64,000 nt of DNA from Bryopsis sp. KO-2023 (taxonomy: Eukaryota; Chlorophyta; Ulvophyceae; Bryopsidales; Bryopsidaceae). The translations under genes were made by a program, and so were the position numbers. Position 1 is the first letter of the stretch. Every line of letters starts with the position of its first letter. The stretch lies in the NCBI GenBank assembly GCA_030272585.1, contig BSYQ01000005.1, positions 6,665,501 to 6,729,500 on the forward strand, in the 5' to 3' direction. Below are positions 26,510-50,072 of the stretch, piece after piece. The notes beneath the pieces are model-generated. The model had not been told where the DNA came from. It saw only the letters and a list, made by a program, of their open reading frames with translations, and did not search any database.

Positions 26510-26940
26510 GTGGATTCGAGGCCCTCGCCCCCCCCGAGGAGGGAGAGGAGCCCGAGGAGGGAGAGGAGGGAGAGGAGGGAGACACTACGAGAACAACCAG
26601 GCTATACGATACGTTTTTTGTATCGTATACGGTACACTCTGTATCGCACGCGACGTGAATTGTATCGTACGATACAAAACGTACCGTATAAACTGGGTCA
26701 ACCGCACGTTTTTACGATACGTTTTGTGTATGGTATGATAGCTCAAACGCAGCGTACGATGTTTGGGAGAAACATCGTATAGTGGTCGAACTATAGCGTA
26801 CGATGTTGTGAGGGAAACATCGTAGAGTGGTTCAAACTTAGCGTACGATATTTCGAGGGAAGCGCGTCGATATCGCGATATCACTGTTCGATATGGCAGT
26901 GGATCGTGTCGTACACTGTTCACATGGAGATACGATGAGA
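26510..26940. repeat. GAGGRG simple repeat joined to CGTACG-palindrome repeat
   Basis: A purine-rich GGAGGGAGAGG tract is followed at 26,587 by CTACGAGAACAACCAGGCTA and a series of ATCGTACGAT-type palindromes to about 26,940. The same junction sequence occurs inverted at 59,455-59,485, again touching a GAGG tract. Confidence 0.55.
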
Positions 26941-26964
26941 GCAACAATGATAATTCAATGATAT

Positions 26965-26982
26965 CCAGGACTCGAACCTGGT
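26965..26982 (-). other. tRNA-like T-arm fragment
   Basis: The minus strand reads CCAGG-TTCGAGT-CCTGG, a perfect T-arm with box B. I cannot fold a complete tRNA around it. Confidence 0.3.
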
Positions 26983-27383
26983 TGGACTGCCACCTGGCAT
27001 ACCATCTATACAGTTTGCACTTTCAAATACTCTGTGCAACTCGCACAATGAAAGATGCACTGGCCCTGCATTTGCCTAAATCTAGCTGAGAAGTGCTTGT
27101 GCCTCCTCTTCAATTTTGATTGCTAGCTTTTTACATGCAGCCAGCATTATCACTCCCATTTTTGGAAGTTGTCATGGCACATATGGCTCTTGCTCTCCTC
27201 CAGTCCACTTCCTTAAAAGGAAACAGGGCAGGGTCTGGCAAATAGTCAATACCATCCAATAGATTCAGGTTGTCCACACCACCAGGAACTTCTTAGACCC
27301 CAGGCTGCATTCCCCTCCAAACCACCACCTAACTACAAAGGAAGCTCTAATAGAGGAAACAAGGTCATTTGGAAATAAAATCT

Positions 27384-28080
27384 TTATATCGACAGAAACA
27401 TCGATAAGATTCCAGCACCACCACCTACTTCACCATTTTCAGTCTCATAGGGGGAACAGAAAATCTCTAGTTTGAGCCCCCCCCTCCAAACTGACACCGA
27501 CAAATGTCTGATTAACTCTTGCAGCAGCCTCGCCACACCACCCAGCAAACCAGTGTCTCCACCATGGCAAGGATCCTGATGTTCTGGAATGCCAATTACT
27601 GGAAACAAAGAAAGGAAAATACAGTTGAACGGGTACATAAAAAGCATATGAAAACCCACCTGGTTTTTGTTCCATTGTATCAAGCACACCCCTTTTTTCT
27701 CCCCACTCGTTTTTTGCAGGAGTCTGTGATTCCCTTGTCTTCCCTCTTATCCCAACTCCTTCGCCCATACACACACAAAAAAAAAAACAAGAGTGCTCCA
27801 CATTCCTTGTGTCAGGGGGCTTGGGCACAGTAGGCACTGGCAGATCAGACTTAAAGTTGTCAGAAATAACTGGATCAACAAAGGACTCGACTTCATTTGT
27901 GCCAAACGAATGAAAACAATACAAGAAAAACGCTGAAGCGCACCTGCTGCAAGCACTGCAACATCGTCATCCTTCCTGGGAGGACCACCACCAATTTCAC
28001 AAAATGCAACACTTTCTGTAGCGCCGGTTACCTGTTTTCTCTTCAACCCCTCTGTAGCACCCGAATGAGCCACATCCATA
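27384..28080 (-). CDS. Unrecognised spliced gene, 3' exons
   Basis: Three minus-strand segments join in phase: about 27944-28060 (reads KRKQVTGATESVAFCEIGGG), about 27,790-27869 (VISDNFKSDLPVPTVPKPPD) and 27384-27598 (ends GILSMFLSI then TAA). Acceptor tracts TTTCCAG and GATCCAG precede the last two. The donor between the second and third is weak. I recognise no domain. It may be the 3' part of the gene whose exons lie at 30.2-30.8 kb on the same strand, but I could not connect them. Confidence 0.35.
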
Positions 28081-29142
28081 TTCTGCCCACCCTATTATGC
28101 CTCGCATTTTCGATCTCCGGGTGGAATTTCCTCTCGGCCTCCAGGCTTTTGTTGTTGACCCACTGAGGTATCTTTCAAATCTGATAGCAGACCAGGGGGT
28201 GTTTCATTATCCCTATTAACAGCGGGGTTCTCTTCATCCCCATCCCAGCATATCTTGATACTGGAGCAAGCATCACAGCTAATGCAACAGCATGTATGCC
28301 GTTTTTCGGTGCAAATGGATGGTGTTCAACTGACTCTTAGATCGAATGTCAAACCCCGAAAACGGTTATCTGTTCTAAAGTTAGCAAAACCTTTTTGTCA
28401 CTCTGCAGAATGCACACACATATCAAAAGGGCGTTAAAGGCACACAAAGCACACCAATGCTCATAAGAATAAACGAATACACAAGGGGAAAGGGGGAATT
28501 TTAGAGAAAACTATCCCTAAAAAATCAATACACTTGTCAACCGTCACAACCCCAAGACTACACCAAAGGGCCCTGGAGACAAAACAATTATCACATTTTA
28601 AAGCACAGCAACCATCGCCAACCCTGACCTGGGACCTGAGATTCCGCAGTGTCGTATGAAACAAACCCAGCAAAGCAACCCCAATCAGTGCCGGGAAAAT
28701 CGTACAGGAGCGGCTCAATCCGGGAAAGACAGGGTACGGACGGGACCCTCGCGTCCCCTAGCCATAACTCACGCGGTCGCGTTTCGGCTCAAGGGACGTT
28801 TTTTTACTTCCCAATGTCAAACTTACAGAAAGAAAAACGGAGCCCCCATACCTGGAGAGGTGGTATTGCACAGCGAGGGTGGGCGAACTTGGACAAGGAC
28901 TCCCATTTTCCCTCTGCTGCCGCGGGCCCGGCATTCGCAATTCACTTTTTCGCTCGCCGAAACCAGTCTCAACAGCTCGATAGCAGCGGCAAGGAAAATG
29001 CTGCGATAAAATTTCGGCGCAGACATGTAACGATAAAGAATATAACATCAATCATTTCACTCTGTCATCACATCCACCACCACACCAATCTTGTTTCCTC
29101 CATGAGACGAGTGAGTGTGGGGGAGACTGGGACGTGCGACAC

Positions 29143-29199
29143 GAAAAGCGGTGGAGTTGGTCCACGATACTCAGAGGGTTCGACTCCCTCGCGCTTTCC
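29143..29199 (+). other. Truncated tRNA-like fold
   Basis: The outer stem AAAGCG/CGCTTT encloses a hairpin GTGGA-GTTGG-TCCAC and a perfect T-arm GAGGG-TTCGACT-CCCTC. One arm of a normal cloverleaf is missing. It could be a tRNA-derived SINE head. Confidence 0.35.
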
Positions 29200-29383
29200 T
29201 ACCTTTTCAGCACCCGGTTCCAAAAGACAGAGGTGTGGACGATACGAATAGGTTGGGGATACCGCAGTGGGGTCTTTACCGCACTGTGGGTGACAATTAC
29301 AAGAGGCGCGGTATCCCCCACTGAAAGAAGAAGGTAAAGAAGGCAACGGCTTTGCGGCTTGGACACCTTCTGCGTGCGATGTT

Positions 29384-29440
29384 TTTATCGTACGATACAG
29401 AATCAGCCGAAAACAAAGGAATTTGTATCGTACGATAAGA
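29384..29440. repeat. TATCGTACGATA hairpin repeat
   Basis: Two copies of TATCGTACGATA sit inverted around a short spacer. The same layout, with similar spacer sequence, recurs at 59,395-59,443. A GGGAGCGGTGG / CCACCGCTCC inverted repeat flanks both copies. Confidence 0.55.
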
Positions 29441-30243
29441 TATTTGTATTCCACCAACCGCCTGTTCCCGCGATTCATATCGACTCTACATGCTCACTCG
29501 GGAGCGGTGGCTGACGCGACTGCCACCGCTCCTGCGGAGCGGTCGCATCAGTCTGGTCGACCGCTCCCGAGGGACCGTGACCTGTGATATCCCCCCCCCC
29601 GATCAGACTGCGTGACGCGTGCCGCCGTTACCGTCATCCGCTCCGACAAGGCCCCGCCCCCCCCCCCCACAACCCCCCAAACCCGCATCGTTCGCCCCGT
29701 CGGAATCAGAGCGCGCGCGTTCGTTCGGTTCAAGGTCGCGGGTCGGCGAGGGCGTGCCGACGTGCCGAGCGGCTCGTCTCTGTGGTTGGCGCGAGGTAGG
29801 TGGTCTTTTGCCCACAGGTGGTGGCGAGGGGGTGGAGAGTGTGTTTTTTTTTTAGAAGTGCAGGAAAAATAAACTCAGTTTTCCCTTGAGGAATTATTCG
29901 AAAGATAGAAAGAGAAAAAAGAGGGGTGGGGGTGGGTAGTTTGAATAAAAAGAGCTGAATTATTTATTTTACAATTCACAAGGTAAATGAATGTTATGTT
30001 TTTTCTAGAAAGAAATAGGGATTCCAGGCACATGTTTCTGTTGCCACTGACCCCAGCGCCAGGGGGGTCAGCATTAGAATAGTTGTGACTGCTGTGTTCT
30101 GGGGTTTCAGTTGAGGACCATCCCTTGTCTGGTTGAACAGTCCCAAGCAAGGCTTAGAGCTTTCCCTCAACCGCCATGTGAAGCAAGTAATATGAAGAAA
30201 GAGAAAAAAAAGGGATAGGGGTGGGTAGTTGGAAAAAAAAGGG

Positions 30244-30770
30244 TTAACGTATCTTTGTTCCCGACGGTTGGGACTGCTGGGAACTGTCTTGCTTTTCTTG
30301 TCTGTGGGTGGGTGTACAACCACGCAAAGAAGCATTTCTGAACTCACTTTTGCGCACTTTCGCCCACCGAGGTTCATTTGCTTGTTCTGACAGCTCCCAA
30401 CATCTTTCAACGCGCACCGTAAGCAGCAGTGCAAATGGAGTAGTGGAACTGAGCAGCTGTGGATGGTGCACGAGAAAACGAATAGCTCGTGAAACTGCTT
30501 TGAATGCACTAGCAGGCTCGTTCACAAAATCAGGAAAACAGTTCCACCTCTGCCATCGCCTTACTCAGCAAGTGGTGTCAGTTGGTTCTGACACCGTGAA
30601 GCATGCTGAGAAAATCTTTGAGAGGGAGGCCATCAGTTTTTGATCTTTTGAACTGCCCAATGCATGATGGACGCGATTCGATGGGCAATGCCGACAGCAT
30701 GGCAAAGAGACCCCAATGTGGTGAGTCCATAACGCCCGCACCACCATTGCCTGTAAGGAAGGAACCCACA
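30244..30770 (-). CDS. Unrecognised spliced gene, two internal exons
   Basis: Two minus-strand exons are phase-compatible. About 30596-30753 follows a CCTTACAG acceptor and reads AMVVRALWTHHIGVSLPCC in one frame. About 30352-30568 follows GATGGCAG, contains SAFKAVSRAIRFLVHHPQLL, and ends at a good GTGAGT donor. The second looks like a real helical protein segment but matches no family I know. Start and stop are not located. ORFs from 30,870 to 31,226 on the same strand may or may not belong. Confidence 0.35.
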
Positions 30771-32349
30771 CCTTTTTGTTTGTGGTCGATTTCGGATAGG
30801 GACACCTTGACAGCGGGGAGGCTTGTTTTCTCCCATCCACCCATCTTGTGTATGTTTGCAGTTCTTTTCTTCTTGGGAGTGAACTAGTCCACATTTTATT
30901 TTTCCTCTTTCAAAGAGCCCCTCGTAGACTTCATTCATTGTTTGCTTCATAGTGTGTTTTCTGAACGCAGAACTATCAACAGTTTTTCCAACCCCTGTGG
31001 AGTGATGACACCAGCCTGAAGACTTTTTATCCTCCTCCAATCTCCCAGCCCATATCCATTGTACTGTGTTGGATTCTTTTTCCATAGTTGTATTTTGCGT
31101 TGATTCGATGTTTCTGTCTGGTTGCGTTTTCCCATGGCGATTGGGGCGGGCGTGGAGTTGGAGAAGGTCGATGGGAAAGGGAAAAGCAACGGAACTGTTA
31201 ATGAAAAGCGTAACATTACCTGCCAAGATCAGTGTTGTTGGTTCATCAGGGTAGTGTTGAAACCAGAGGGTAAGATTTTAAAAGAATATCAAATTGGGTA
31301 TTCCTGGCAATTGGCAACAGGAAATGGGAGGGGGAGGAAGGACAGCAGGGCCGCAGAAAATCAAATCCAGACAGTCGAAATTCAAAAAATGGTTGTGTTT
31401 GGAACGAAGGGGATTGCTTGGCGAGCGGGCGGGGGTGGAGACAGAATTGGGTTGTGGGAGGAGCTTTTGTTTGTTTTGCGGCAGGGTGGGGGAAAGATTT
31501 TCAAAATGGAAGAAAATGTAGAGCTGGAGTTCTTGAAAAAGAACTACAGGATATCTGTGTTGCTCTTGTGGAGAAGAAAAGGGCGAAAGTCTAGAGGAAG
31601 GGGGCAAAAAAAAATCGATTTGTATTTGTCTGCAAGAAAAACAGCACAAGGGGGGGGGGGGGGGGGGAGAAATAGTGGCAGGTTCACCTACACTTTGCCA
31701 GATGGTTGTTTCCCAAGGAAAAGAAGTTCAGGAAGTTTAGGGGAGGGAAGGGTGGGTGCAATTGACGAAAGGGAGAAAGAAAATGACGAGCAAGAACAGA
31801 GTGTAATGCTTGGATGCTTCATTGCTTACAGCCCCATTTTTTTTGGGCTTTTCTGGCTTGAGGGGCGGGAGGGGGGAAGTTGTGAGGGGATGGTGCATGT
31901 TTTTCCCTGTCACTCCCCTCTCTCTCAACTCCTATTTAAATGTTTTGAAATGTGTCCTGCGCCATGCAGTCGCCTGCCTTATTCTTCCCCCCACCCCCAC
32001 CCCTTTTTTTGTTGAAAAGAATAAAAAGTTGTTTCATTCATTTCTAACGAGCAAGGAAAATTTGGACCACCACGAAGAATGAGCGTGCGCAGAAATTTAA
32101 CAAAAGCTGCAAAAAAAACAGCCTAGTAACTCCGAGAAAAAACAAAGAGCTCACTGCAAAAATCAGAGAGTGCTTTCAGTTGCTGCTCAGAAAACCAGTG
32201 CTGCACTAGTTCGATCGATGTGAAACCGACTCTGTTCCGAATGATGTGACTTTGGTGGATGGTTTAAGTCGCTATCTGAGGCAGGCAACGAGAAAACAGA
32301 CAGCGTCGTGGTGACCGCGGTTGTGTTCTTGACGGCAGTTGTTTCTGCG

Positions 32350-35300
32350 ATGGAAGGAAACGATGACGGTGAGGTGTTACCAGTCCAAGGTCAGGCGCAA
32401 GACGCGAGGGAAGGAAACGATGGCGGTGAGGTGTTACCGGTCCAAGGTCGGGTGGAAAAGGCGAGGGGCGAGAAATGGCTGGAAGGTTTTTCTACCCGCC
32501 TCCCAAGTAAAATAAACTGGAATGGTTACATCCCTTTCGCCTTCAACCCCGCGAAGCCAAGTTTTTTAAGCAGGTGGTTACTTTCAAAAGGAACAAAAAA
32601 TCAAGCGATTTTTTATAAATCAAGAAAAATCAGTTGTTTAGTGGAGGATGAACAGTTCAATTGCAAAAGTCGCAATATATACATACATATTTTTCTTTTT
32701 TCTTTTATTTTTATTTTTATCTTTTGTTTTTTCAGGGTATTTGCAACTTTTGCAACTGAAGATTGGCAGTTGTTATTGCCCTTTAATGGGATTAATCTTC
32801 CTCAATCTGTGAGCCCCGCCAAACAACAGAAAATTATAGATTTCGTGAAAAACATGGTCCGGGCAACGTTAACGAGGGGTGCTCAAGATCGCCACGATAC
32901 GGGCGGAGCAAATAAAGATTATTGGCCTCGCCAATACGAATTCTTGGTAAGTTAAAGTAATAGGATCTAAATATCTATCTGTATATTTACAGAAATATAA
33001 ATTGGTATAACTGGTGATCTACGGAAACGAAAATTTTCCAGCCCTAAAGTGATTTTACAGAAATAAAGCAATTCAATACCTTGGTATTGGATGCAAGTTT
33101 ATCGAAAAATTGATTGATATTTGATGTGCTTCTTCTCGTGAGTGATGAGATGAGGTGACATCAATATCTGATGTGCTTTAATGGTGAGATGACATATCAG
33201 GAAACAAAAATTCTGTGGTTTTTTCTGCTACAATTTATCAAAAGGCTTTGTGGCAGTTTTTCAATTCTCTCTGCATCTCAAGGTGATTAAATAGTTCTGG
33301 CAGTTCTGTAATTTTTCCTGGGACTGCATCTCATGTGATTGAATGTTTCTGGCAGTTCTGTAATTATTCTGGGACAGTCTATTAAGGGGCTTAAACTACT
33401 TTTTAAGCCCCTTGATACACTGTCCCAGAAAATGATCTTGTTTTTCCAGTTATCTTTAGCTTTCTTTTGTTTTCCAAATAAGAAAAAGTAGGAAGTCATT
33501 GGGTGATCAATCAATGAGCCGTGCAGTGATTTTCTGTAAAGATTTTTTGTGCTTGTTCGATCACAATACATTGCATGCCAGCAGGAACATATGCACATAA
33601 CATTGCAGACTGCCATAAACCACCATAATGAAAAAATATCCAGCCTGCCTGATTGGGGCTGTTCACAAGCAGCCCAAGGGATTGAAGGCTGTTAAAAAAC
33701 AAACTATACTCTTTTTAATTGATCATTTCCTTCCTTTCATCTCCATATATCTGAGAAATGAATGTGGAGTCCAGAATTTTGTGAAGGAGCGGCCTCATTT
33801 GCATTGTGGCTTGAAAGAAGTTGGGAATTTGCTGGGGTATGAAATGGATCCCAAACAAAAAGCTCAGGAGTTAGGTGTTTGGGAGGGACCTCATTTTTTG
33901 GTCACGGAGAAAGCGGTTTTGGAATTTTTCAAGTTCAAACAGTTCACAGTTGCCGAGGAAGCCAAGCAACAGGGGGTAATAATCAGGCCCACTATTGGAG
34001 ATGAAAATAAGAGAGCAAAAGTGGATCTACGCAAACTGAAGGTAGTTTTCAATATTTATTATTTTGTTACATCTTACTAGGCTTAAAAGCTCTGGAATCT
34101 TTTACCTTAGTTTCAGTGTGTGGAACTCATATAAGATGTAGCTTACCTATGAATTGTGAACACCACCCATGTTTGCTTTATGTTCTAAGAAATGAACTTT
34201 TGAAGCCTACTGATTTCTGCAGGATACCTTATCTTCTCATGTCCCGACAAAGGCGAGGACTACGCGTCGAACGAAAGAAAAACCTGTCATGGTGAGATGT
34301 ACAGAAAATACAATTTTAATGCACTAACATTGATTAAACTATAAACTCAAATTTGACCATCTTATAATTTTTTTTTTGTGAAATTCTTGTTCTCAGAATT
34401 GAACACATAAGATTGGTTGCATGTGGGCTGCAAAAATTTTACAGTTTTTTTCTTTTTTTTTTTTCTGGGGGGGGGAAATACTCTTGCGGTCTTGTTTACC
34501 TCTAGGACAGAAAAAAACGATGTTAAACTCCGATGGGAACATGTTTTTCTTCATTTTTATCGCCACCATAAATCCTATCCCCACTTTCACACGCTACATA
34601 CCTGAAACCTTTGCAAGCATTGTAGATTGTGTGCCAAAGAGTCCCTACAAAGAGAAAAGAAAATACACTTACTTTAATTTGATTTGGTTCTAGTTGGGAG
34701 AGTCAACGATTAAGAGCTACAGATCGGCTTTAACACAACTGGAACGATTTCAACATGGCATCTTCGAAATTCAGAATCACTTGACCCCGTACAAAGATCG
34801 GGTCGAACTGAAGGCCACTTTGGAGGTCTTAATGGCAGAAGCGAAAGCTGCGAAAAGCGAGTGAGTTACTTTGTTGTTTTTCTTTGTTGCCACTTCGTTA
34901 TTGAATGTGTTTTTCACTAAACTATAGCAGCACTTAAAAAAGTCTTTAATGTCTTTCAGAAACGCTGTCGACAAAAGCTGGGGCACAATTTCAACCTACC
35001 CAACAGTTGCGCAGGTCTGGATGTTTCTGGACTATTTGGTTGGTATGGGTGCAAGCACAAAAAGCAACGATATGGATGCCCACACAGGGCTCACATGCAT
35101 GTAAGAAAGATTCAGATTAGGTGATTTTATTGTTATGTTTCAACCTGATCACCATGCTGAAGATAATGAACACACCTTTTGAAGGTCAGTATTTCATGAG
35201 GCACTCATGGCTTTGGAGAGAGGCGACAACACCTTCAGAATAGCCTATTCCGACAAACAGGTGCTCGAAATATCCGATTTTTCTCCATGTCCTGGAACTA

Positions 35301-38300
35301 TCAAGATGCAAGTGTTCGTCACGATTGCCAACCGAGGAAAAGGAAACCGGGTACGAAAAACTCGTTAACAGTGGCTTGGCGCTCCAGGCCGATTGCCATG
35401 GAACAAATGTGACATCCAGAAATAGAAGCAAAAATTCGACGATTTTGTAGTTCATACTTTTCTTTGTTGCATTTATTCTGTTCAACCATTCGTACCTTCG
35501 TTTGATCGTTTGCGTATGAAATTTGTAAGTGGTTTGGCTGATAAGCCGATGGTCGGGCTGATACAACGGTGGGTCAAGTGACACTTTTTCCCACAGAAAT
35601 TCTAGCAGGTCAGGAAACTATTGTCTGAATCAGTTGTGTTTACAGAATTTCAACAAGGATTACTATCCCAAGGTGCCAAACACGAACCCCTTAAGGTGTG
35701 GGGTAGTATGGGATGCGTGCCTCCTAGCTTTCAGGCATGACGTCATGGGGGTGCAACCTCCTGATTTTTTCAGCACAACTCTTGACGGAGTTTCTTCCTC
35801 GAAGTTTCGACGACCTTGGTAGGAGGGAAAAAAAAAAAAAAAAATAGAAAAAAAAAGAAAACTTCTAAAAATAAATGAATAGATGTTTTCTATTTCTTTT
35901 TTTTTTCTTTCTTTCCTTTTTTCCTTTTTTTTTCTGACCTTTATGTTTATATTTTAGGTATGATGATTGTTTTTATGCGCAACTCAACCATCGCCGGAAG
36001 AATAACAACGTCGGGAAAAAAAAACCCGATGATGATATTACCCTCGCGGATCGTCTTGCTAATATGCAGAAAATGAAACAAAGCACCTTATTACGAGACG
36101 CCGTTCAATATGTAAGTGAAAACGCCTTCTAAAGCAGAAAATTTTCAGGAGAAACCGATAGGGAGTCATTAAGACTCGTGAAAATTTCTGTTGTTTTTGT
36201 ATATATTAAAAGGATGACTCCTCACATGTTTGAAAAAATAACTTTTCTGGAGTTTTTTATCAATTTAAATATTTTTTGGGGAAACAGCGATGCCTAGATT
36301 GTACAAATGCTTTTCATCACATGAAGTTTTTCTTTGCATCAAGGAAGAAGAAGCTGATTGCAACAGTAATCTCACTGAGCCGTATCTTTTATCCTCCCTG
36401 GAACGTATCTTCAGCCAGGCGCTGGGTGCAGTTGGCATAACATCCACCCTGCATGTGCTGCACTTGATGCGTGAATACGGAACATTCATGCTCACGCTTG
36501 CAAAGTCGGTAATTGTGAAACTTGTTTTTCTTTAAAGTGTTCTACTATTTCTTGCATTTTCATGAAATGTGTTGGTGAAGGCTGGAAGCCACTCCCAGCT
36601 CACACACTGTGCAAATGAGCAAACCTACCTCAAAATCAACAGATTTTACTTGTTTAAGAGCTTCCCACCATTTTTGCAGTGTGGACAGAGTACAACTCCT
36701 TGAGCTTGGTCACTGGGGAGATGACAAGGATGGTGGCAGGTCCAATATGAGCGCCTCGTACAAACATTTACCCAATCCAAACGTGATGGCAAAGGTTGCA
36801 GGATTTTCTGATTATGATTCTTATCGTCCATATTGGGCATCTTTATCACCACCATCATGTTTGGTGGACTTGGTTCTTCCATATTTCAGGAAATCTTTGC
36901 AGGAATTAAAAGAGGTGCGCTCAAAATATATGTTGGAGTGTAATTGTATCAAAGAACTTGTTTCGAAATAACCCAAACAGACCACACTGTTGGGCCAGAG
37001 CTGAACCATTCTCCTCAGCTGGCATGAAAGTTTTTTTTCGAGTTCAGTTCAATCCATTCATGAAGAAGCAGTCAGGGTTTGGGGGTTGAGAGCAACGTGT
37101 GCTGAGTTTTTTTGATGGGATAAAGAGATCTATGGCTTGCTACTGTTGGCCCTCTTTTGCTGTGGGTTACAAGTTTTGATTGATCGAGTGTTGCGGAGTA
37201 TGGTCGCACTTGCAAAACCTTGCAGTGCACCACCAGATGTCTGACAATTGATGCCTATACTTGCAGCCATATTCAAACCTTTACAAGACATTGATGTGCG
37301 AATCATTTTATCTATCACCAATAAAATTGACGATGTGATTGGCAGCTCACAGCTACTGCAAGCCTTATTGATGCCAAGGGAAGTGAAGAAATCCAAGATG
37401 GTGTTCGTCATTTGTGGGACGGTCAAGCTGTACAAACTTGCACATACATTTGTGAAGCATCAATCAAGATGATTCAAGCTGCACCATATATTGCTGTAAG
37501 TTCTCTCCTCATTTCAATAAAACTTTGGACGATTTCCTGTTCCAAAAACCAAGTCATAGGACAGCACTCCAAAACAAAAGATATCCACTGTGGCTATCTG
37601 GCCAATCAATTTTCGAAAAGGATCTGAAGTGAATCTAAACAGGAATTCTGAATCACTCGGAGGAAAGTTGAGTAATATTCGAAACCCACTTTTGTTGTGA
37701 TTGGTGATAAACTAACTGATTTTTTGTTTTTCTTGTAGGAGCGTTACCCCAACCATGCCTTGGTTAAGAAACACCCTTTGTTTCTTCATTCTACTTTCAA
37801 AGTGTGGTCAGCAATGGTTTTTGAGTACCATCGTCTCGTGGAGGCAGTTGAGCTGAAGACACCACATGTCTTCTCCACGATTACAGGATTGGGCTTCAAG
37901 GTGACACGCTTCTTTGACGTGCTGTGGAAGAATCCATGCAATTTTTTAGCATCTTCGAGAAGAGATCTTAAAACAATTTTGATAAATTTCATAATGAACC
38001 CCCTTTTTTTTTTAGGCTCCATCATCATCAGAAAAATTCCCCACACGCGCAAGCCAATGTTTTTTTATCGCTACTGAGCTTTGTGGGACCTACAGTGTAG
38101 CCTCTTTTGAACCCCCCTTTTTTTTTTTTTAGGCTCCATCATCATCAGAAAAATTCCCCACACGCGCAAGCCAATGTTTTTTTATCGCCACTGAGCTTTG
38201 TGGGACCTACAGTGTAGCCTCTTTTGAACCCCCCCCCTTTTTTTTTTTTAGGCTCCATCATCATCAGAAAAATTCCCCACACGCGCAAGCCAATGTTTTT

Positions 38301-40014
38301 TTATCGCCACTGAGCTTTGTGGGACCTACAGTGTAGCCTCTTTTGAACCCCCCCCCTTTTTTTTTTTTAGGCTCCATCATCATCAGAAAAATTCCCCACA
38401 CGCGCAAGCCAATGTTTTTTTATCGCCACTGAGCTTTGTGGGACCTACAGTGTAGCCTCTTTTGAACCCCCCCCCTTTTTTTTTTTTAGGCTCCATCATC
38501 ATCAGAAAAATTCCCCACACGCGCAAGCCAATGTTTTTTTATCGCCACTGAGCTTTGTGGGACCTACAGTGTAGCCTCTTTTGAACCCCCCCCCTTTTTT
38601 TTTTTTTTAGGCTCCATCATCATCAGAAAAAACTGTTCATGTATTTGTAGGTTGACATTTCCCAAGGAGGAGTCAGGGTGACGATTGGAGGAAAGCGAGC
38701 AACGGGCGAGTGCCCAAGTGAGTTTCTTCACCTAGCAACGAGTGTTCAGAGGAGAGGGCAGGAGATTCTCACGGGTGAAGTTAGTGCTTGTGGGCAACCA
38801 TCTTCGGGAAGTGACGTCACTTATGAAGGCCTGCAAAGGACAATCCTCAACGGGTTTGAAAATATAAAAAAATTGATACAAACATCGGCCAATGTATCCT
38901 TACCTCGTGGGCTGACTGCAGCAATGTCACCGTTGAACGGGGCTATTCCAGCACCTGTGATGTTTGATCGTCGCAAACGAGCTCGGTCTCCTGTGTCCAG
39001 TAAACCCCGTGTGACAACTCCCATTGATAAAGCACCCAGGCCTTTAGTGGTTGCGTTCCCCAATTTGGATGCGGTATGTGGGAAGCCCTTTGCTATCGAT
39101 GCCTTGTGGCAGATTTGGATGGAAGGATGGCAATGTGCCGGCACATCACACGGACCCTTCAAAGAAATGGTAAGAAAAATGGTCTCAAATTTTCAGTTCA
39201 CCATACCATAGTGTACATTAAACTTTCAGAGTTGTGTAAATAAATACGAACATATTTAATTTTGCAACAAGTTGTGGAAAGTAAAAAAAAAAGGAAAGTA
39301 AAGTAAAGCACAAGCTGTATGAACCCCCAAACACGACTTTCTCGTGATTGTATAAGGTTTGGGATACGATCCAATGCAGCATGAAGAACAACCTACTGCA
39401 TTTATTTATTCCTGAAAGTTAACTCCAAAAACTGTGATATTTGCTATTAAATGTATCAGCAACTAAGACAAGTCTCACACCATCAACAGCTCAAGACGAA
39501 GGGACAACGGCGCCTCTATAAGGAACGAGCTTCTGAAGAGAAGGGAAAGAGGATTCGGTGAGGCACTCCCAGAAAGTTGTCACCTGTGATATCGTAAGAG
39601 AGCAAACTACCTTCTAAATTTCCCCTTGCCGTTTCTTTGAAGATATATAGCAACAACGATCGAGCTGGTCGCCATGGAAATTGCTGCCTCTCCCGACCCT
39701 GCTGCATACGTCACAGAAATTCCAAGGAGTATTAGACTATGGAATGAGTATCTTAGTGCTTCGAACATCAAGTCTACGAAGCAATTGGGTACCATAATCA
39801 TGGATGAACTCAGAAGAGAGGGATTGACACATCCAGGGAAAGCTCTTCAAAGCTCGGGTAATATGATCAATTATATTCATTGCAAATAGTGTACTTCATT
39901 CAAGTAGTACTTGGAAAATGAGGTTGTGCTTGTATCATTTATGCAGGTCAATTGTGGACCAACGAAAAATACAGGAGTGCAACCTTGCTCTGGAAACGTT
40001 TTCATAGGGGGTAG
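32350..40014 (+). CDS. Crypton/NDC10-type tyrosine recombinase, 17 exons, apparently intact
   Basis: Exons: 32350-32573, 32736-32946, 33775-34041, 34223-34291, 34694-34860, 34960-35100, 35185-35350, 35646-35818, 35958-36111, 36344-36504, 36680-36914, 37346-37495, 37739-37900, 38651-39169, 39490-39557, 39643-39857 and 39947-40014 (TAG), about 1,049 aa with no frame break. The centre follows the NDC10 domain II/Crypton layout: ALERGDN (Arg about 372), ANRGKGNRN (Lys about 412), PLRCGVVWDACLLAF then PPDF and RRPWYDDCF, HLMR (H-x-x-R, 564-567), ELGHWGDD (His about 589), SASYKHLP (Tyr about 605) and VAGF. These supply R-K-HxxR-H-Y of tyrosine recombinases, which cut and rejoin DNA through a Tyr link. 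The C-terminus (ALWQIWMEGW, then QRRLYKER) could be a GCR1_C-like DNA-binding part. Exon 1 has an 18-aa tandem duplication (GEVLPVQG twice). The exon 10 donor (GTCGGT) is weak. The many introns suggest a host gene rather than a naked transposon. Confidence 0.66.
33369..33430. repeat. Hairpin repeat in intron 2 of the recombinase gene
   Basis: Arms TCTGGGACAGT...AAGGGGCTTAAA and TTTAAGCCCCTT...ACTGTCCCAGA pair almost perfectly over about 28 bp around a 6-nt loop. A degenerate copy of the outer segment lies just upstream near 33,297. MITE-like. Confidence 0.55.
37996..38625 (+). repeat. Tandem array of 117-bp units, each with a splice-acceptor-like start
   Basis: Five full units and a sixth partial unit of about 117 bp, more than 95 percent alike by eye. 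Each has a C-run, a T-run, TAG, then GCTCCATCATCATCAGAAAA. The array lies in intron 13 of the recombinase gene, directly before exon 14 (38651). Confidence 0.85.
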
Positions 40015-40419: not shown

Positions 40420-43010
40420 TAAGTGGAGAAATTCCCTTTGGGAAATTCACTCCTGGAAAATCAAGGATTGCCTATAAGTCCTACCCCAAAGAGAGTTTTC
40501 TTTCGAAACTTGAATGATGTGTTTGTCAAAATACAAAATCTCAGCTTTTCAAAAATTAGACCAAACAAATGTATATGCAGGCTGCCACGACGGATTCCAC
40601 TTCGGTGGGGAAATTCACTCTAGGAATATGAAGGATTGCCTATAAGTCCCACCCCAGGGGGAGTTTTATTTCGAAACTTGAATGATGTGTTTGTCAAAAT
40701 ACAAAATCTCAGTGTTTCAAAAATTAAACCAAACAAATGTATATGTGGGCAGCCACGACGGATTCCACTTTGGTGGGGAAATTCAATGTGGGAAAATCAG
40801 GTTTTTTCTTGGATTGTCTATAAGTCCTATCCCAGGGGGACTTTTTTTTCGAAACATGAATGATGTGTTTGGCATATTCCAAAGTCTCAGTGTTCCAAAA
40901 ATCAAACCAAACAAATGTATATGTGAGCTACCACGACGGATTCCAGTTTGGTGGGGAAATCCACTCTGGGAAAATCAGAGATTGCCTATAAGTCCTACCC
41001 CAGGGAGAGTTTTCTTTCGAAACTTGGATGATGTGTTTAGCAAAATACAAAGTGTCAGTGGTCCAAAAATTGGACTAAACAAATGTATATGTGGGCTGCC
41101 ACGTCGGATTTTACTTTGGTGGGGAAATTCACAAAAGGAAAATCAGGTCTTTTTTTGGATTGCCTATAAGTCCTACCACAGGGAGAGTTTTCTTCCGAAA
41201 CTTGGATGATGTGTTTAGCAAAATACAAAGTGAAACGAGGCTACTTTTTTCAAGGTCCCCTCGCCCTCCTAGAGGAGGACGAGTGCCTTCCTCAAGCGTC
41301 TCGTTAGATAGAACTTCCTTACACGAATAAAGTTATAAAGAAGATACAACGACCTTTTCCTTCCACACTCTTATACCCTAGCGTCACAGCGCATCAAACC
41401 CTTGTTCCTGTCGACGTGTCACTATTCACTAGGAATTCACACATCTCCTTGCCACCTCAACTGTGAACGTGCCCCTATTCCACGAGAACTCAGTGAGTTC
41501 AACTCACACGTCCAATTGACAACTCGACTTTGATGGCTGCCACATCATCATCCATCAAACTCCATCGAGCTTGGTTGTAGTCGTGACTCCAAGGGTGTCG
41601 CACTACTGCACCTCTGCACCTCTACACCTCTGCACCTCTGCACCTCTGCACTGCTGCACCTCTGCACTGCTGCACGCTGCACTGCTGCACGCTGCACTGC
41701 TGCACGCTGCATCCACCGCTGCACGCTGCACTCCTACACGCCGTACTCTCGCACGATGCTCCTACACGTTGCACTCTTGCAACCTTCTCTTTTTCAGCTG
41801 CAGGAAGCATGGCAACTACTCTTGTAGTTCCAGCTCGAGTGCTGCGATAACCAACCGTTACACAAAGTGTCAGTGGTCCAAAAATTGGACTAAACAAATG
41901 TATATGTGGGCTGCCACGTCGGATTTTACTTTGGTGGGGAAATTCACTATAGGAAAATCAGGTCTTTTTTTGGATTGCCTATAAGTCCTACCCCAGGGAG
42001 AGTTTTCTTTCGAAACTTGGATGATGTGTTTAGCAAAATACAAAGTGTCAGTGGTCCAAACATTGGACTAAACAAATGTATATGTGGGCTGCCACGTCGG
42101 ATTTTACTTTGGTGGGGAAATTCACTATAGGAAAATCAGGTTTTTTTTTGGATTGCTTATAAGTCCTACCCCAGGGAGATTTTTACTTCGAAACTTGAAT
42201 GATGTGTTTGGCATATTCCAAAGTCTCAGTGTTCCAAAAATCAAACCAAACAAATGTATATGTGAGCTGCCACGACGGATTCTAGTTTGGTGGGGAAATC
42301 CACTGTGGGAAAATCAGAGATTGCCTATAAGTCCCACCCCAGGGGGAGTTTTCTCACCAAACTTGAATGATGTGTTTGCCGAAATACAAAGTCTCCGTGT
42401 TTCAAAAATTAGACCAAACAAATGTATATGTGAGCTGCCACGACGAATTGCAGTTCGGTGGGGAAATCCACTCTAGGAAAATCAGAGATTGCCTATAAGT
42501 CCCATCCCAGGGAGATTTTTCTTTCGAAACTTGAATGATGTGTTTGGCATATTTCAAAGTCTCAGTGTTCCAAAAATTAGACTAAACAAATGTATATGTG
42601 AGCTGCCACGACGAATTGCAGTTTCATGGGGAAATCCACTCTGGGAAAATCAGAGATTGCCTATAAGTCCCATCCCAGGGGGATTTTTCTTTCGAAACTT
42701 GAGTGATGTGTTTGTCAAAATACAAAATCGCAGTGTTTCGAAAATTAGATCAAACAAATGTATATGTGGGCTGCCACGTCGAATTCCACTTTGGTGGGGA
42801 AATTCACTCTAGGGAAATCAAGGATTGCCTATAAGAGGGGGAGTTTTCTTTCGAAAGTTGAATGATGTGTTTGGCACATTCTAAAGTCTGAGTGTTCCAA
42901 AAATTAGATCAAACAAATGTATATGTGGGCTGCCACGTTGGATTTCAGTTTGGTGGGGAAATTCACTCTAGGAAAATTAAGGATTGCCCATAAGTCCCAT
43001 AATGGACTTA
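40420..43010 (+). repeat. Satellite array, about 170-bp units
   Basis: At least eleven diverged units of about 165-183 bp. Each contains GATTGCCTATAAGTCC, a CGAAACTTGAATGATGTG stretch, ACAAATGTATATGTG and a TGGTGGGGAAATTCACT end. Unit starts fall near 40422, 40605, 40773, 40955, 41121, 41935, 42113, 42290, 42460, 42628, 42797 and 42957. ORFs here read the same repeated peptide and are by-products of the array. It is interrupted at 41231-41862 by a solo LTR. Confidence 0.85.
41231..41862. mobile_element. Solo LTR (632 bp) inside the satellite array
   Basis: Starts TGAAAC and ends GTTACA, flanked by CAAAG at 41226-41230 and 41863-41867. TG...CA ends plus a 5-bp duplication fit a solo LTR left by recombination. 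An AATAAA-type signal lies at about 41,327 if read plus. It contains a CTGCACCTCTGCACC-type simple repeat at 41,610-41,720. No coding sequence. Confidence 0.75.
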
Positions 43011-46503: not shown

Positions 46504-47174
46504 AAGGCGAGGCCAGGCGCACCCCACAGGAGAACTCGCGAACCCCCCCCCAAAGATCTGACCTTAGGGATTACTAAATCCCACAGATCTGGAACTCTGT
46601 GTTCCAGGGGTCGCGAGGAGAGCTATCCTTCGAACGACGTGCTCGCGTCGTCGTTCGAAAACGTCAGGCGAAGTCGCAAAAGAATCGGAGTCCAGTGAAC
46701 GAATTTCTGGAAACCTACAGATCTGTAGATCTAAAGGAAAACAAGGCGAAAGCACGACAACAGTGCAAGGAGAGCAACGATCGGCGTAAACCCGAAACGC
46801 GCAGGCGAACAACTGAAAGTGCGAACCGGCGAAGGAAAGAACGTCGTCCGGAACGACCAACTTCCGTCGACTGACGCTTCTGCCAGTAACACGAAAAACA
46901 GTCGTTCTGGCAGGTGACTCATTGTCACTCTTTCCAGCGCGCAATCGGTTACCGCACCGCCTGAGTCACGACTGGTTCTACAGTTAGTCGTAGACTGAAT
47001 CACCGGCCAAGGTACTAACCTAGTCGGCTGACAGAACGCGAACGGGAAAGTAACACCCGACGTTGTCAAGTGTAAAACTCCTATCTATTTCTGACCTAGT
47101 AAGGTTCAAGAAAAGATAGCGACTAGGATTGCAACCAGAACTGAAACAAGTTCGCATCCAAGGCACCAGAAAGT

Positions 47175-50072
47175 TTGGAAACTTTCCGGACACACTCCTA
47201 TTACGTCAAAATTCCAGGAAATTCAAACAAAAACATGTCCGGCCAGACGCCGCCACAGCTACCACCTATTCCACCTCCTGAGGAGGAAGAGGTGGTGGAT
47301 AACCAACTAATTCCCGTGGTTTATCCAGATGTGGTGCACCCACCAGCGCAGCAAATACATGATTTGCAGTGGGACAGACATGTACCCGACCAGGTTGAGG
47401 AACCGGACGAAGACTTAGACTCGGAACAAGAGTCGGAAGAGTCCGGGGACGAGGAGTATGATGAGGATATGGAGGACGTCCCGACAATAGAAGTCACCAA
47501 CATCCTTCACCATGAACATCAGCACATAAACGTCCACCAGCAGGAGGTGCACGTTCATGGTGTGGACGAGGGACAACTTAGGGACACAGCTGAGCATGTG
47601 TATGCCGCTGTCTCCTCGAATGTGCAAGAGGTCGCACAAAACCTGGAAGGACAAGTTCACGAGCAGGTTCAGCGTGCAGAGTCGACCTTAAAAGGCGACC
47701 TGAAAGAGGAATATGAGCAGTTCGTGCTCTATGTCAGGAAGGAGGCCCAGAAGCTGGTCAATCAAAATACTGAGTCTATAGAAAGACAACAGAAATTGTT
47801 AGACCACCAGCACAAATTGCTGGAACAGAATATAAGGTCCACAGAGCGGATCGACAGGAATCTGTTGGGTAAATACGATAACGAGGCTATTCTGCAAGAG
47901 CGACTCGATCGACTGCAGGAATCAGCCCGTACCCAAGCTGAAGCTGTTGATCAGACCAATGCGCTCAGGGAGAAACAAATTCTGTCTCTGCAAGCCTCTC
48001 TGACAAAAGTTGCTGAAGGTATGCGCCTACAGCAGACAACGCTGGATAACCTAGCTCGGACTACTGATGAGTCTCGGTGCGAGCAAGTCGACCACCAAGG
48101 CCAGCTAGACACACTCTCAAGCTTGGTAAGCCAGAGCCTAAAAGTGTTGCGGGACTTACACCAAGCCGAAGAACAACGCAAACAAAGAAGGGCGGAACGA
48201 GGCAGTGTGAGTTCTGATGACACTGCAGGAGGACACAGGTCGATGCAACTGATGGAGAAATTTCTATCAGACGCGACAGAGAAACAGCAGACTTTGGAAA
48301 GTAATCTCTCCAAGTATGTTGATTCGAAGTTCAAAGAAACACTGAGTGCGTGGAAAAAACGGGAGAAAGTTCGAGTCCCGGCTCAGGACCCAGTTGTAGT
48401 GGGTATGATGGGAGCAGGAACTGGCACGGTCACTTTGCCGGCCACGACAGCTGCAGCCACAAGCGTTCCTTTTGTGTCATCCACTCCTCTTACCAGTATC
48501 CCATTTCCGGTACCACCTGTTCCGGATCTGAGTACTTTTACTGGTCTAACCACGTTAGGAGGATTGGGTGGTCGCAGCCCATCGACAACTGTCGCAGACT
48601 CCGTGGGTGGAGGTTCTCCATCTTCCTGGGGTTTATTTACATCCCCAAGAACACGGACGGCATGGAGTCTTGCGCCGCCACAAACTATGGCAATGGGCGC
48701 ACCATTCGGCCAAGCGGGTCAACTTGGCACAGCCAGACCCATACTTAGTGTCCCTGTAACGAGTGTGTTACCACCAACGACATCCATGTTAACACAACCA
48801 CTGACGACAGTTCCGCTGTCTGTCTTCTATCCAATCCCGGCTCTTAACACCCAACCTGGTATGCAACCAGGAAACCAACCAGGCACCCAACCAAGTTTGG
48901 GACAATCCGTAAACCAATACGGAGCACCTTCCGCGAGTAACCCGTATTACGGGTGGGGTTCTTATCCCTCAACTCCATCAAGCCAGCCACAGGGTGGAAA
49001 TCGATCTGGTGGTGGTGGAGGGGGACCCGGAGGTGGACCTGGGGGTGGAGGCGGAGGCGGAGGAGGACCACCTGGAAGTGGAGGGGGATCTTTCCTTTCC
49101 GGACCAGGTGGAGGTGGGGGTGGTGGATGGCCGTACCACCCAGGTGGAGGTGGAGGTGGCGGAGGTGGAGGTGGGGGTCCTCCAGACCCTAACCAAGGCT
49201 TTGCTGCTCCGCAAGATCGCCACGGACGGATTCCGTCATCCGTTCGTATTCCTTTCCCAAAGGCCTTCTCAGGTGATGGTCAGCGATGGATCAGAGATTG
49301 GCAACTAGAAATGACGGTCTATTGCCAGACTTTGGACATCGATGAGAGCGTATGGTTCAGGCTCTTCCGCAGTAACCTGACTGGAGCTGCTGCTCAGTGG
49401 CGAAACGTCCAGGATCTGCGTACAAGGGAAGGAAAAAGACATCCAATTACAAATTGGATTGAGTTTGTTGAGGAACTGGTCCAAGCATTTGAACCCACCA
49501 GAATGTCTGATGTAGCCAGGCGCTCCTTACGGAACCTGAAACAGACTGGGTCAGTGCATCAGTACATTGTTGCTTTCCGAGAACAAGTGCTGAGGATTCC
49601 CAACATGACAGATGAAGAACAATACTTCTTCTTCGTGGACGGATTAAAGTTCCATATCAAACAACAAACTGTGGCTCAAGTGCCGCACGGCATTGAGTTG
49701 GCGATCCAGACGGCGGCTCGTCTTGATGCTATTGCCTCATCCGGAGGAGGAAACTTTCGTGGCCGCGGACGGTGGCGCGGAGGTAAAGGCCGAGGCCAAA
49801 ATAAAAAGCAAAACCAACCCCAAACTGATAAGGCAAACCAGATGGGTGGCCAACAGCAACCTCAGCCAGACCAGGCACAAAACATTGGCCAAGGTCGAGG
49901 TCGGGGAAGGGGTGGTGGCCGAGGTCGCGGACGAGGTGGTGGCAGGAATCAAGGACGTGGAGGTGGAGGCGTAAATCCTAAATGCTATATGTGTGGAAAA
50001 ACTGGACATATTCAAAGTAAGTGTCCAGAGGGCGAAAAGTTCAAGAAATGGTTAAACGAAAAAGCCGGATGA
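47175..50072 (+). CDS. gag: Chromovirus Gag polyprotein
   Basis: A 965-codon ORF, long for a Ty3/gypsy Gag. Residues about 1-110 are Pro- and acidic-rich, about 120-400 are a long helical/coiled-coil region, about 430-600 are Ser/Thr/Pro/Gln-rich, and about 606-670 are a poly-Gly tract. The retrotransposon gag (capsid) domain lies at about 705-840 (RWIRDWQLEM, LTGAAAQWR). An RGG-rich nucleic-acid-binding stretch follows, then one CCHC zinc knuckle, CYMCGKTGHIQSKC, at about 937-950. Gag packages the element RNA in the particle. The coiled coil and RGG tract are extra to the usual capsid-knuckle plan. An in-frame ATG also occurs at 47235 (MSGQTPPQ), so the true start may be 60 bp downstream. 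Confidence 0.9.
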   Translation: METFRTHSYYVKIPGNSNKNMSGQTPPQLPPIPPPEEEEVVDNQLIPVVYPDVVHPPAQQIHDLQWDRHVPDQVEEPDEDLDSEQESEESGDEEYDEDMEDVPTIEVTNILHHEHQHINVHQQEVHVHGVDEGQLRDTAEHVYAAVSSNVQEVAQNLEGQVHEQVQRAESTLKGDLKEEYEQFVLYVRKEAQKLVNQNTESIERQQKLLDHQHKLLEQNIRSTERIDRNLLGKYDNEAILQERLDRLQESARTQAEAVDQTNALREKQILSLQASLTKVAEGMRLQQTTLDNLARTTDESRCEQVDHQGQLDTLSSLVSQSLKVLRDLHQAEEQRKQRRAERGSVSSDDTAGGHRSMQLMEKFLSDATEKQQTLESNLSKYVDSKFKETLSAWKKREKVRVPAQDPVVVGMMGAGTGTVTLPATTAAATSVPFVSSTPLTSIPFPVPPVPDLSTFTGLTTLGGLGGRSPSTTVADSVGGGSPSSWGLFTSPRTRTAWSLAPPQTMAMGAPFGQAGQLGTARPILSVPVTSVLPPTTSMLTQPLTTVPLSVFYPIPALNTQPGMQPGNQPGTQPSLGQSVNQYGAPSASNPYYGWGSYPSTPSSQPQGGNRSGGGGGGPGGGPGGGGGGGGGPPGSGGGSFLSGPGGGGGGGWPYHPGGGGGGGGGGGGPPDPNQGFAAPQDRHGRIPSSVRIPFPKAFSGDGQRWIRDWQLEMTVYCQTLDIDESVWFRLFRSNLTGAAAQWRNVQDLRTREGKRHPITNWIEFVEELVQAFEPTRMSDVARRSLRNLKQTGSVHQYIVAFREQVLRIPNMTDEEQYFFFVDGLKFHIKQQTVAQVPHGIELAIQTAARLDAIASSGGGNFRGRGRWRGGKGRGQNKKQNQPQTDKANQMGGQQQPQPDQAQNIGQGRGRGRGGGRGRGRGGGRNQGRGGGGVNPKCYMCGKTGHIQSKCPEGEKFKKWLNEKAG

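Follow-up and report, generated by a model that had tools for sequence, protein, structure and literature searches.

The locus examined here raises the question of whether a gene encoding a catalytically complete, Crypton-like tyrosine recombinase is part of a mobile element or has been taken over by its host. It lies in the window, a stretch of 64,000 nucleotides from contig BSYQ01000005.1 of Bryopsis sp. KO-2023, a plastid-bearing organism, which agrees with the algal host that the earlier note had considered possible. The gene was modelled with 17 exons on the plus strand (32350-40014), comprising a coding sequence of 3,180 nt and a protein of 1,059 amino acids with the sole stop codon at the end (Table 1). 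The intact 17-exon gene read from the DNA letters was thus recovered as a single open frame over 16 introns; its multi-exon open structure stood, and its length, previously given as about 1,049 codons, was corrected. All 16 introns were bordered by GT-AG, which was itself the selection criterion in picking introns by eye, and an unusual donor was present at the end of exon 10 (CAAA followed by gtcggt). A small codon model, for which exons 5-13 served as the training set, placed the modelled frame on top in six of the eight held-out exons, failing in exons 4 and 17; the score of exon 15 was negative although highest in the modelled frame, and that of exon 17 was negative in frame. Exons 1-4 and 14-17 were essentially without homology support.

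Table 1. Features of the recombinase gene and its surroundings (window coordinates).
Feature	Position	Strand	Remark
Upstream neighbour	30484..32026	+	CAP-Gly-like remnant; 3' portion shares homology with C7:3291017-3295590
57-nt direct repeat pair at exon 1	32347-32460		
Exon 1	32350..32573	+	start ATG; open frame only, without homology support
Exon 2	32736..32946	+	frame favoured by held-out codon model
Exon 3	33775..34041	+	weak acceptor tggagtccag; frame favoured by held-out codon model
Exon 4	34223..34291	+	frame not favoured by codon model
Exon 5	34694..34860	+	homologous part begins
Exon 6	34960..35100	+	within profile match
Exon 7	35185..35350	+	catalytic R372 (35219), K412 (35339)
Exon 8	35646..35818	+	both flanking introns coincide with C3 element gene introns
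Exon 9	35958..36111	+	mostly insert relative to relatives
Exon 10	36344..36504	+	catalytic H564 (36461), R567 (36470); donor gtcggt
Exon 11	36680..36914	+	catalytic H589-W590 (36711-36716), nucleophile Y605 (36759)
Exon 12	37346..37495	+	within profile match
Exon 13	37739..37900	+	contains profile match end (residue 736)
Tandem repeats of ~119 bp in intron 13	37995..38634	+	ends approximate
Exon 14	38651..39169	+	
Exon 14 repeat part	39039-39176		four whole or partial recurrences on C2 and C22, 90-95%
Exon 15	39460..39557	+	codon score negative, yet highest in frame
Exon 16	39643..39857	+	
Exon 16 repeat part	39737-39918		recurs whole or partial at three places on C2, 86-93%
Exon 17	39947..40014	+	stop TAG; frame not favoured by codon model
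168/178-bp satellite array, downstream	40440..42997	+	also on other contigs

The encoded protein contained the motifs ERGD (R372), GKGN (K412), HLMR (H564/R567), LGHW (H589/W590), and SASY (Y605). These residues fell in columns common to its relatives and correspond, in order, to the catalytic set of tyrosine recombinases, so that the complete R-K-HxxR-H-Y set claimed earlier held up. Pfam NDC10_II (PF16787), proposed at that time as a check, did match the whole protein (16.6 bits, E 0.0044), but below the curated cut-off of 26.3 bits; a core trimmed by hand of a 30-residue insert reached 21.0 bits (E 2e-4; model positions 39-317 of 317), also below the cut-off. A profile built from five relatives (P0001-P0004 and the C3 gene described below, the window protein being left out) matched from the final residue of exon 4 (257) into exon 13 with 42.9 bits (E 2.3e-12), the best of 2,000 shuffles reaching 5.6 bits, which bore out the assignment to the Crypton/NDC10 class. 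Further, the Smith-Waterman score against a related gene was 137, compared with 67 for the highest of 1,000 shuffles. Taken singly, P0004 and P0005, the latter an NDC10_II protein that lacks the H-R segment in the alignment, showed no match to the window protein beyond shuffles (62 and 32 of 300, respectively, reached the score).

The window locus was absent from the listings of exon-by-exon genome searches with NDC10_II and GCR1_C. In the protein collection, no homologue at E <= 0.001 was found with the window protein as a query (7,995 candidates scored) or with A1, a two-row alignment led by it (7,996 scored); the C3 protein alone retrieved five homologues. Among solved structures, there was no sensible match to the window protein and none to A1. 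NCBIfam and phage records gave no match, no match in viral contigs was confirmed, and Rfam found nothing in the window. The predicted structure of P0001 had a pLDDT of 41.9 and was discarded. For GCR1_C, the other profile proposed in the earlier note, the window protein had no Pfam match at E <= 10, and the score of its C-terminus against the GCR1_C part of the C3 gene was reached by 77 of 500 shuffles. The sequence is best read as coding for a Crypton-like tyrosine recombinase that is a divergent member of the NDC10_II/Crypton superfamily, keeps the full catalytic set, and is predicted to be active.

NDC10_II matches were detected at ten places in the genome besides the window gene. One 12.4-kb element (C3/C4) was found in two sharply bounded copies on different contigs (12,464 and 12,440 bp), whose flanks are unrelated. 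Over 12,393 aligned bases the copies differ by 18 mismatches, and the alignment has 118 gap columns. Each copy had CCG at its start and its end; the ends shared CCG only, and terminal inverted repeats were not observed. The recombinase of this element matched NDC10_II (3.5e-45) and GCR1_C (1.1e-11), and the element contained a GCR1_C frame (4.2e-12), a second GCR1_C frame below the cut-off (5.1e-4), and stretches resembling sequence elsewhere in the genome at 89-95%. In layout (NDC10_II and GCR1_C) it corresponds to CryptonF, and it has likely been mobile recently. In a weak match to Cre (whole-sequence E 0.61-0.91), the C3 gene's counterparts of H, R, W, and Y aligned with those of Cre, and its core weakly matched Cre and CBF3 A among solved structures. 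A candidate rearrangement of a second element was noted at C2:8501000-8530000.

Introns 7, 8, and 10 of the window gene were located at the same residue and in the same phase as introns of the C3 gene, accounting for three of the five introns modelled there. Because of this coincidence, the joins at these introns, including that at the odd exon 10 donor, are independently supported. A reading of the gene as something other than a recombinase, with chance motif look-alikes in stitched frames, could appeal to the shortness of the motifs, the Pfam score below the cut-off, and introns picked by eye, but it is contradicted by the shuffle controls and the coinciding introns, and the coverage of the NDC10_II model also speaks against it; we regard it as scarcely credible.

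The same introns bear on domestication, which the earlier note had read from the 17 exons and the missing terminal repeats. Neither argument survived. Since the likely mobile C3 relative has coinciding introns, the number of exons is no pointer to domestication, and the inference was rejected; the introns common to recombinase genes of this algal branch are probably ancestral. As for the repeats, inverted repeats are absent from recombinase transposons of this type (PMC3627910). Cryptons have short direct repeats of 4-6 bp (PMC3212892), which cannot be located for the window gene because there is no second copy.

In a DNA search, the gene was its own sole full-length match, the other 38 matches listed being partial; the multiple dispersed copies that mark a Crypton element were thus not seen for it. 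Between window positions 20,000 and 60,000, allowing <=4 substitutions, the left-end pattern of the C3 type was absent and the right-end pattern occurred four times, none convincingly, and no element ends were found for the gene. A single BLAST query for a C48 peptidase near the gene, against window frames of at least 30 aa, gave a best E of 0.58. The final 190 bp of the upstream neighbour's homology were detected only at E 0.002 and 0.028; this homology fades at ~32026, and the 5' boundary of the gene may lie there.

Fragments of the gene's exons sit with abrupt edges in other repeat families, suggesting that pieces have been copied about. Together with the negative codon scores of exons 15 and 17, this would suit a relic, an old element copy, unexpressed and functionless, whose frame is still open by chance. 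Against it stand the retention of every catalytic position and 1,059 open codons at a composition in which stops are expected by chance at ~5.5% of codons; exon 14 alone would be open with p ~1.4e-4, although the frames had been chosen post hoc. A relic is quite improbable.

A domesticated host gene, serving in DNA rearrangement, for which its catalytic set is intact, or in sequence-specific DNA binding like Ndc10 at yeast centromeres, is a possibility of some weight, if a doubtful one. The single full-length copy, the frame intact over 17 exons, and the unseen element ends are in its favour, as is a related locus on C12 (L018) whose frame looks broken by eye. Retained catalytic residues are compatible with domestication, in that the ATF7IP locus of birds carries a Crypton recombinase frame that is intact and strongly conserved (PMC3212892). 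However, the DUF3504 genes described in the same source are without most of the catalytic tetrad, whereas the window gene keeps the full set, and the intron number lends no evidence.

On balance, we lean towards the window gene being a recombinase of an intron-bearing lineage that includes CryptonF-like, probably mobile elements, and a lone, old or low-copy member of an element lineage rather than a host gene, although its intact single copy could fit a host gene equally. Following general tyrosine recombinase chemistry, protomers would bind paired sites at the element ends and the target; Y605, assisted by R372, K412, H564, R567, and H589/W590, would attack the DNA backbone and become joined to it through a 3'-phosphotyrosyl bond; and by two rounds of strand exchange the DNA would be excised or inserted as a circle, with no duplication of the target site. 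A bolder proposal, which we consider unlikely, is that algae host a deep, intron-rich CryptonF-like branch moving in units of 12 kb or more, which carry recombinase genes with introns and picked-up host sequence, and that the window gene is an independent offshoot of this branch, still catalytically intact and serving as a single-copy host gene for programmed DNA rearrangement.

Cryptons are the source of yeast Ndc10 and of several vertebrate regulators. In an algal branch with introns common to its recombinase genes, exon number is unusable for recognising such domestication, and the near-identical C3/C4 pair permits direct tests of excision, circle formation, and target choice.

The C3/C4 element itself resembles the window gene in its homologous, intron-bearing recombinase with three exact intron positions in common, but the two are 26% identical in the alignment, and the element exists in two nearly identical copies whose ends are defined, whereas the window gene is single and its ends were not found. 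The captain of Starship elements is a DUF3435 recombinase, a class different from that of the C3/C4 element, which is also far smaller and whose cargo is putative. Like the fungal Starships (PMC12134995), C3/C4 is a large element with a tyrosine recombinase, and it includes the stretches that resemble other places. With CryptonF of fungi and oomycetes (Kojima and Jurka, 2011; PMC3212892), the window gene shares an NDC10_II-type recombinase with the same order of catalytic residues, and relatives in this genome also have GCR1_C; it differs in its 16 introns, its one full-length copy, the ends and GCR1_C not being found, and its plastid-bearing algal host. Table 1 of PMC3212892 gives fungi, animals, oomycetes, and one diatom as hosts, and a Chlamydomonas element is named in the legend of its tree; searches of open-access papers listed none of the CryptonF kind for green algae. 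As in some oomycete Cryptons (PMC3212892), a C48 peptidase adjoins one relative in this genome. Cbf2/Ndc10 was reported to lack the catalytic site (PMC3212892, as "data not shown"), which the window protein keeps. Yeast Ndc10 (CBF3 subunit A) shares the NDC10_II domain, and the part after the tyrosine, PP..L followed by HPLF, aligns within the family.

On sequence comparison, the candidate gene in the window is a Crypton-like, NDC10_II-type recombinase gene. A Pfam search of its protein returned NDC10_II as the single family, so the profile match expected in the earlier note was obtained (E 0.0044), while its score of 16.6 bits fell below the curated cut-off of 26.3. A core trimmed of a 30-residue insert, which we removed ourselves, matched model positions 39-317 of 317 and was still sub-cut-off (E 2e-4, 21.0 bits). 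When the NDC10_II gene of a likely 12.4-kb element on contigs C3 and C4 of the same genome (hereafter the C3 gene) was used as the query, five proteins with precomputed NDC10_II (P0001-P0005) were retrieved, three of which also had GCR1_C. A profile of P0001-P0004 and the C3 gene, from which P0005 and the window gene were excluded, scored 42.9 bits against the window protein (E 2.3e-12; residues 257-458 and 545-736, with a third stretch scoring below zero), compared with a top score of 5.6 bits among 2,000 shuffles, and upheld the tyrosine recombinase of the Crypton/NDC10 class proposed earlier. Pairwise scores were 137 for the C3 gene (shuffle maximum 67, n = 1,000), and 136, 127 and 71 for P0002, P0003 and P0001 (maxima 64, 64 and 62, n = 300 each); those of P0004 and P0005 were not beyond shuffles, being reached by 62 and 32 of 300, respectively. 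The CryptonF label was withheld from the window gene because GCR1_C was not demonstrated in its protein and the gene is single-copy.

The proposed R-K-HxxR-H-Y catalytic set was recovered in order (R372, K412, H564, R567, H589-W590, Y605), and in alignments these residues shared columns with their counterparts in the C3 gene and P0001-P0003, the H589 column containing R or K in P0001-P0003. The H..R..W..Y segment of the C3 gene was placed opposite that of Cre, a weak match alone (E 0.61-0.91). We infer that the window protein would have recombinase activity. The kept residues do not settle whether the gene is an element or a host gene, because an intact, conserved Crypton frame is described in birds in PMC3212892.

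The gene model joined 17 exons into one open frame of 1,059 aa, in agreement with the intact multi-exon gene noted before. All 16 introns were GT-AG, having been picked by us to be so, and exon 10 was in phase only with the odd donor CAAA|gtcggt. Homology was confined to exons 5-13, and exons 1-4 and 14-17 were modelled from open frames. When exons 5-13 were used to train a small codon model, the modelled frame was top-scoring in six of these eight held-out exons (exceptions, exons 4 and 17), yet the score of exon 15 was negative. Intron 7 contained a dispersed repeat of SINE-like length, which recurred over a similar span at about eleven or more other places (70-74%).

The earlier note had read the 17 exons as a sign of domestication. 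Three of the five introns in the modelled part of the C3 gene coincided in exact residue and phase with introns 7 and 8 (alignment with phases) and 10 (local alignment) of the window gene, the last supporting the odd exon 10 donor. A fourth was 2 nt off intron 12 and the fifth fell beyond the aligned part; introns 9 and 11 had no C3 gene counterpart in the aligned region. This suggests that introns are a property of the recombinase lineage, and the number of exons accordingly does not speak for domestication.

A DNA search with the window gene gave one full-length match, itself, the other 38 listed being partial. Pieces of exons 14 and 16 were found at four (90-95%; C2, C22) and three (86-93%; C2) places, respectively, inside other repeat families and with abrupt edges, and would be like gene fragments captured as DNA. 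The copied pieces (L029-L032, L034-L036) extended into intron sequence. On the upstream side, a remnant resembling CAP-Gly (sub-cut-off, E 1.2e-4) was homologous to a C7 locus, the homology fading at ~32026, and no likeness to the window gene was found in the 1.5 kb examined on the C7 side. Downstream lay a satellite, split by an LTR-like insertion of ~630 bp with at least 31 copies (93-96%, often ~8.5 kb apart), and then a Ty3-type retrotransposon, whose first 0.8 kb was 97-100% identical at the 39 other places listed (best 40 of 598 candidates). One BLAST query found no C48-like frame in the window. A 2.9-kb repeat had at least three more full copies (97-98%; C7, C13, C4) and partial ones, and a frame resembling the VPS13 N terminus (sub-cut-off, E 6.6e-12) is perhaps part of a large minus-strand VPS13 gene.

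Coordinates of features in the window and of related loci in the same genome
Feature	Location	Detail
VPS13-like frame	window 9252-10061 (-)	
2.9-kb repeat	window 26583-29482	
Recombinase gene	window 32350-40014 (+)	
Intron 7 repeat	window 35375-35575	
Exon 14 piece	window 39039-39176	
Exon 16 piece	window 39737-39918	
Satellite	window 40440 onward	168/178 bp
LTR-like insertion	window 41231-41862	
Ty3-type retrotransposon with chromodomain	window 46315 onward	gag 47145-50072, pol 50021-54139
12.4-kb element, copy 1	C3:6592513-6604976 (L048:6514 to L019:8977)	12,464 bp
12.4-kb element, copy 2	C4:4760758-4773197	12,440 bp
Sequences like element's left half	C1:6564116-6565456; C8:3415077-3417923	89-95%
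Second NDC10_II family	C2:8501000-8529999 (L024, L025)	compared with L023 (C4)
Peptidase_C48 frame	L022:2477-3022 (-), C15	2.5e-15

The host is an alga, as the earlier note had allowed, since the genome held 107 light-harvesting family matches and two Photo_RC matches (91,672-bp contig). The NDC10_II family search gave 13 matches at ten places in this genome and none in 14 control genomes; the window locus was absent from the ten because the search reads exon by exon. GCR1_C matched at five places. Among the titles and abstract openings listed for open-access papers, no report of a CryptonF from a green alga appeared. In the second NDC10_II family, 7.5 kb was repeated at 100% identity in copies 19 kb apart, one of which breaks off into the element's far end in opposite orientation.

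The C3/C4 stretch is likely a CryptonF-like element. Its spliced protein matched NDC10_II (3.5e-45) and GCR1_C (1.1e-11), with a sub-cut-off Phage_integrase match (0.0035). The two copies differed by 18 mismatches in 12,393 aligned bases (0.145%) and 11 gap runs of 118 columns in total, and their flanks were unrelated. Neither had a terminal inverted repeat, and both started and ended with CCG. Transposition was favoured over a recent segmental duplication of the pair because a recombinase lies inside and the end triplet is shared. No third full copy was among the matches listed (second search, best 40 of 131 candidates). The left half, with a sub-cut-off EF-hand frame, contained stretches that are possibly picked-up host sequence.

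According to Kojima and Jurka (PMC3212892), Cryptons have terminal direct repeats of 4-6 bp and a proposed circular intermediate; the three-base end repeat of the C3/C4 element is shorter. At L022, a locus with NDC10_II (1.5e-6) and sub-cut-off GCR1_C (1.1e-3), an Ulp1-like Peptidase_C48 frame lay downstream on the same strand, a pairing like that of some oomycete Cryptons.
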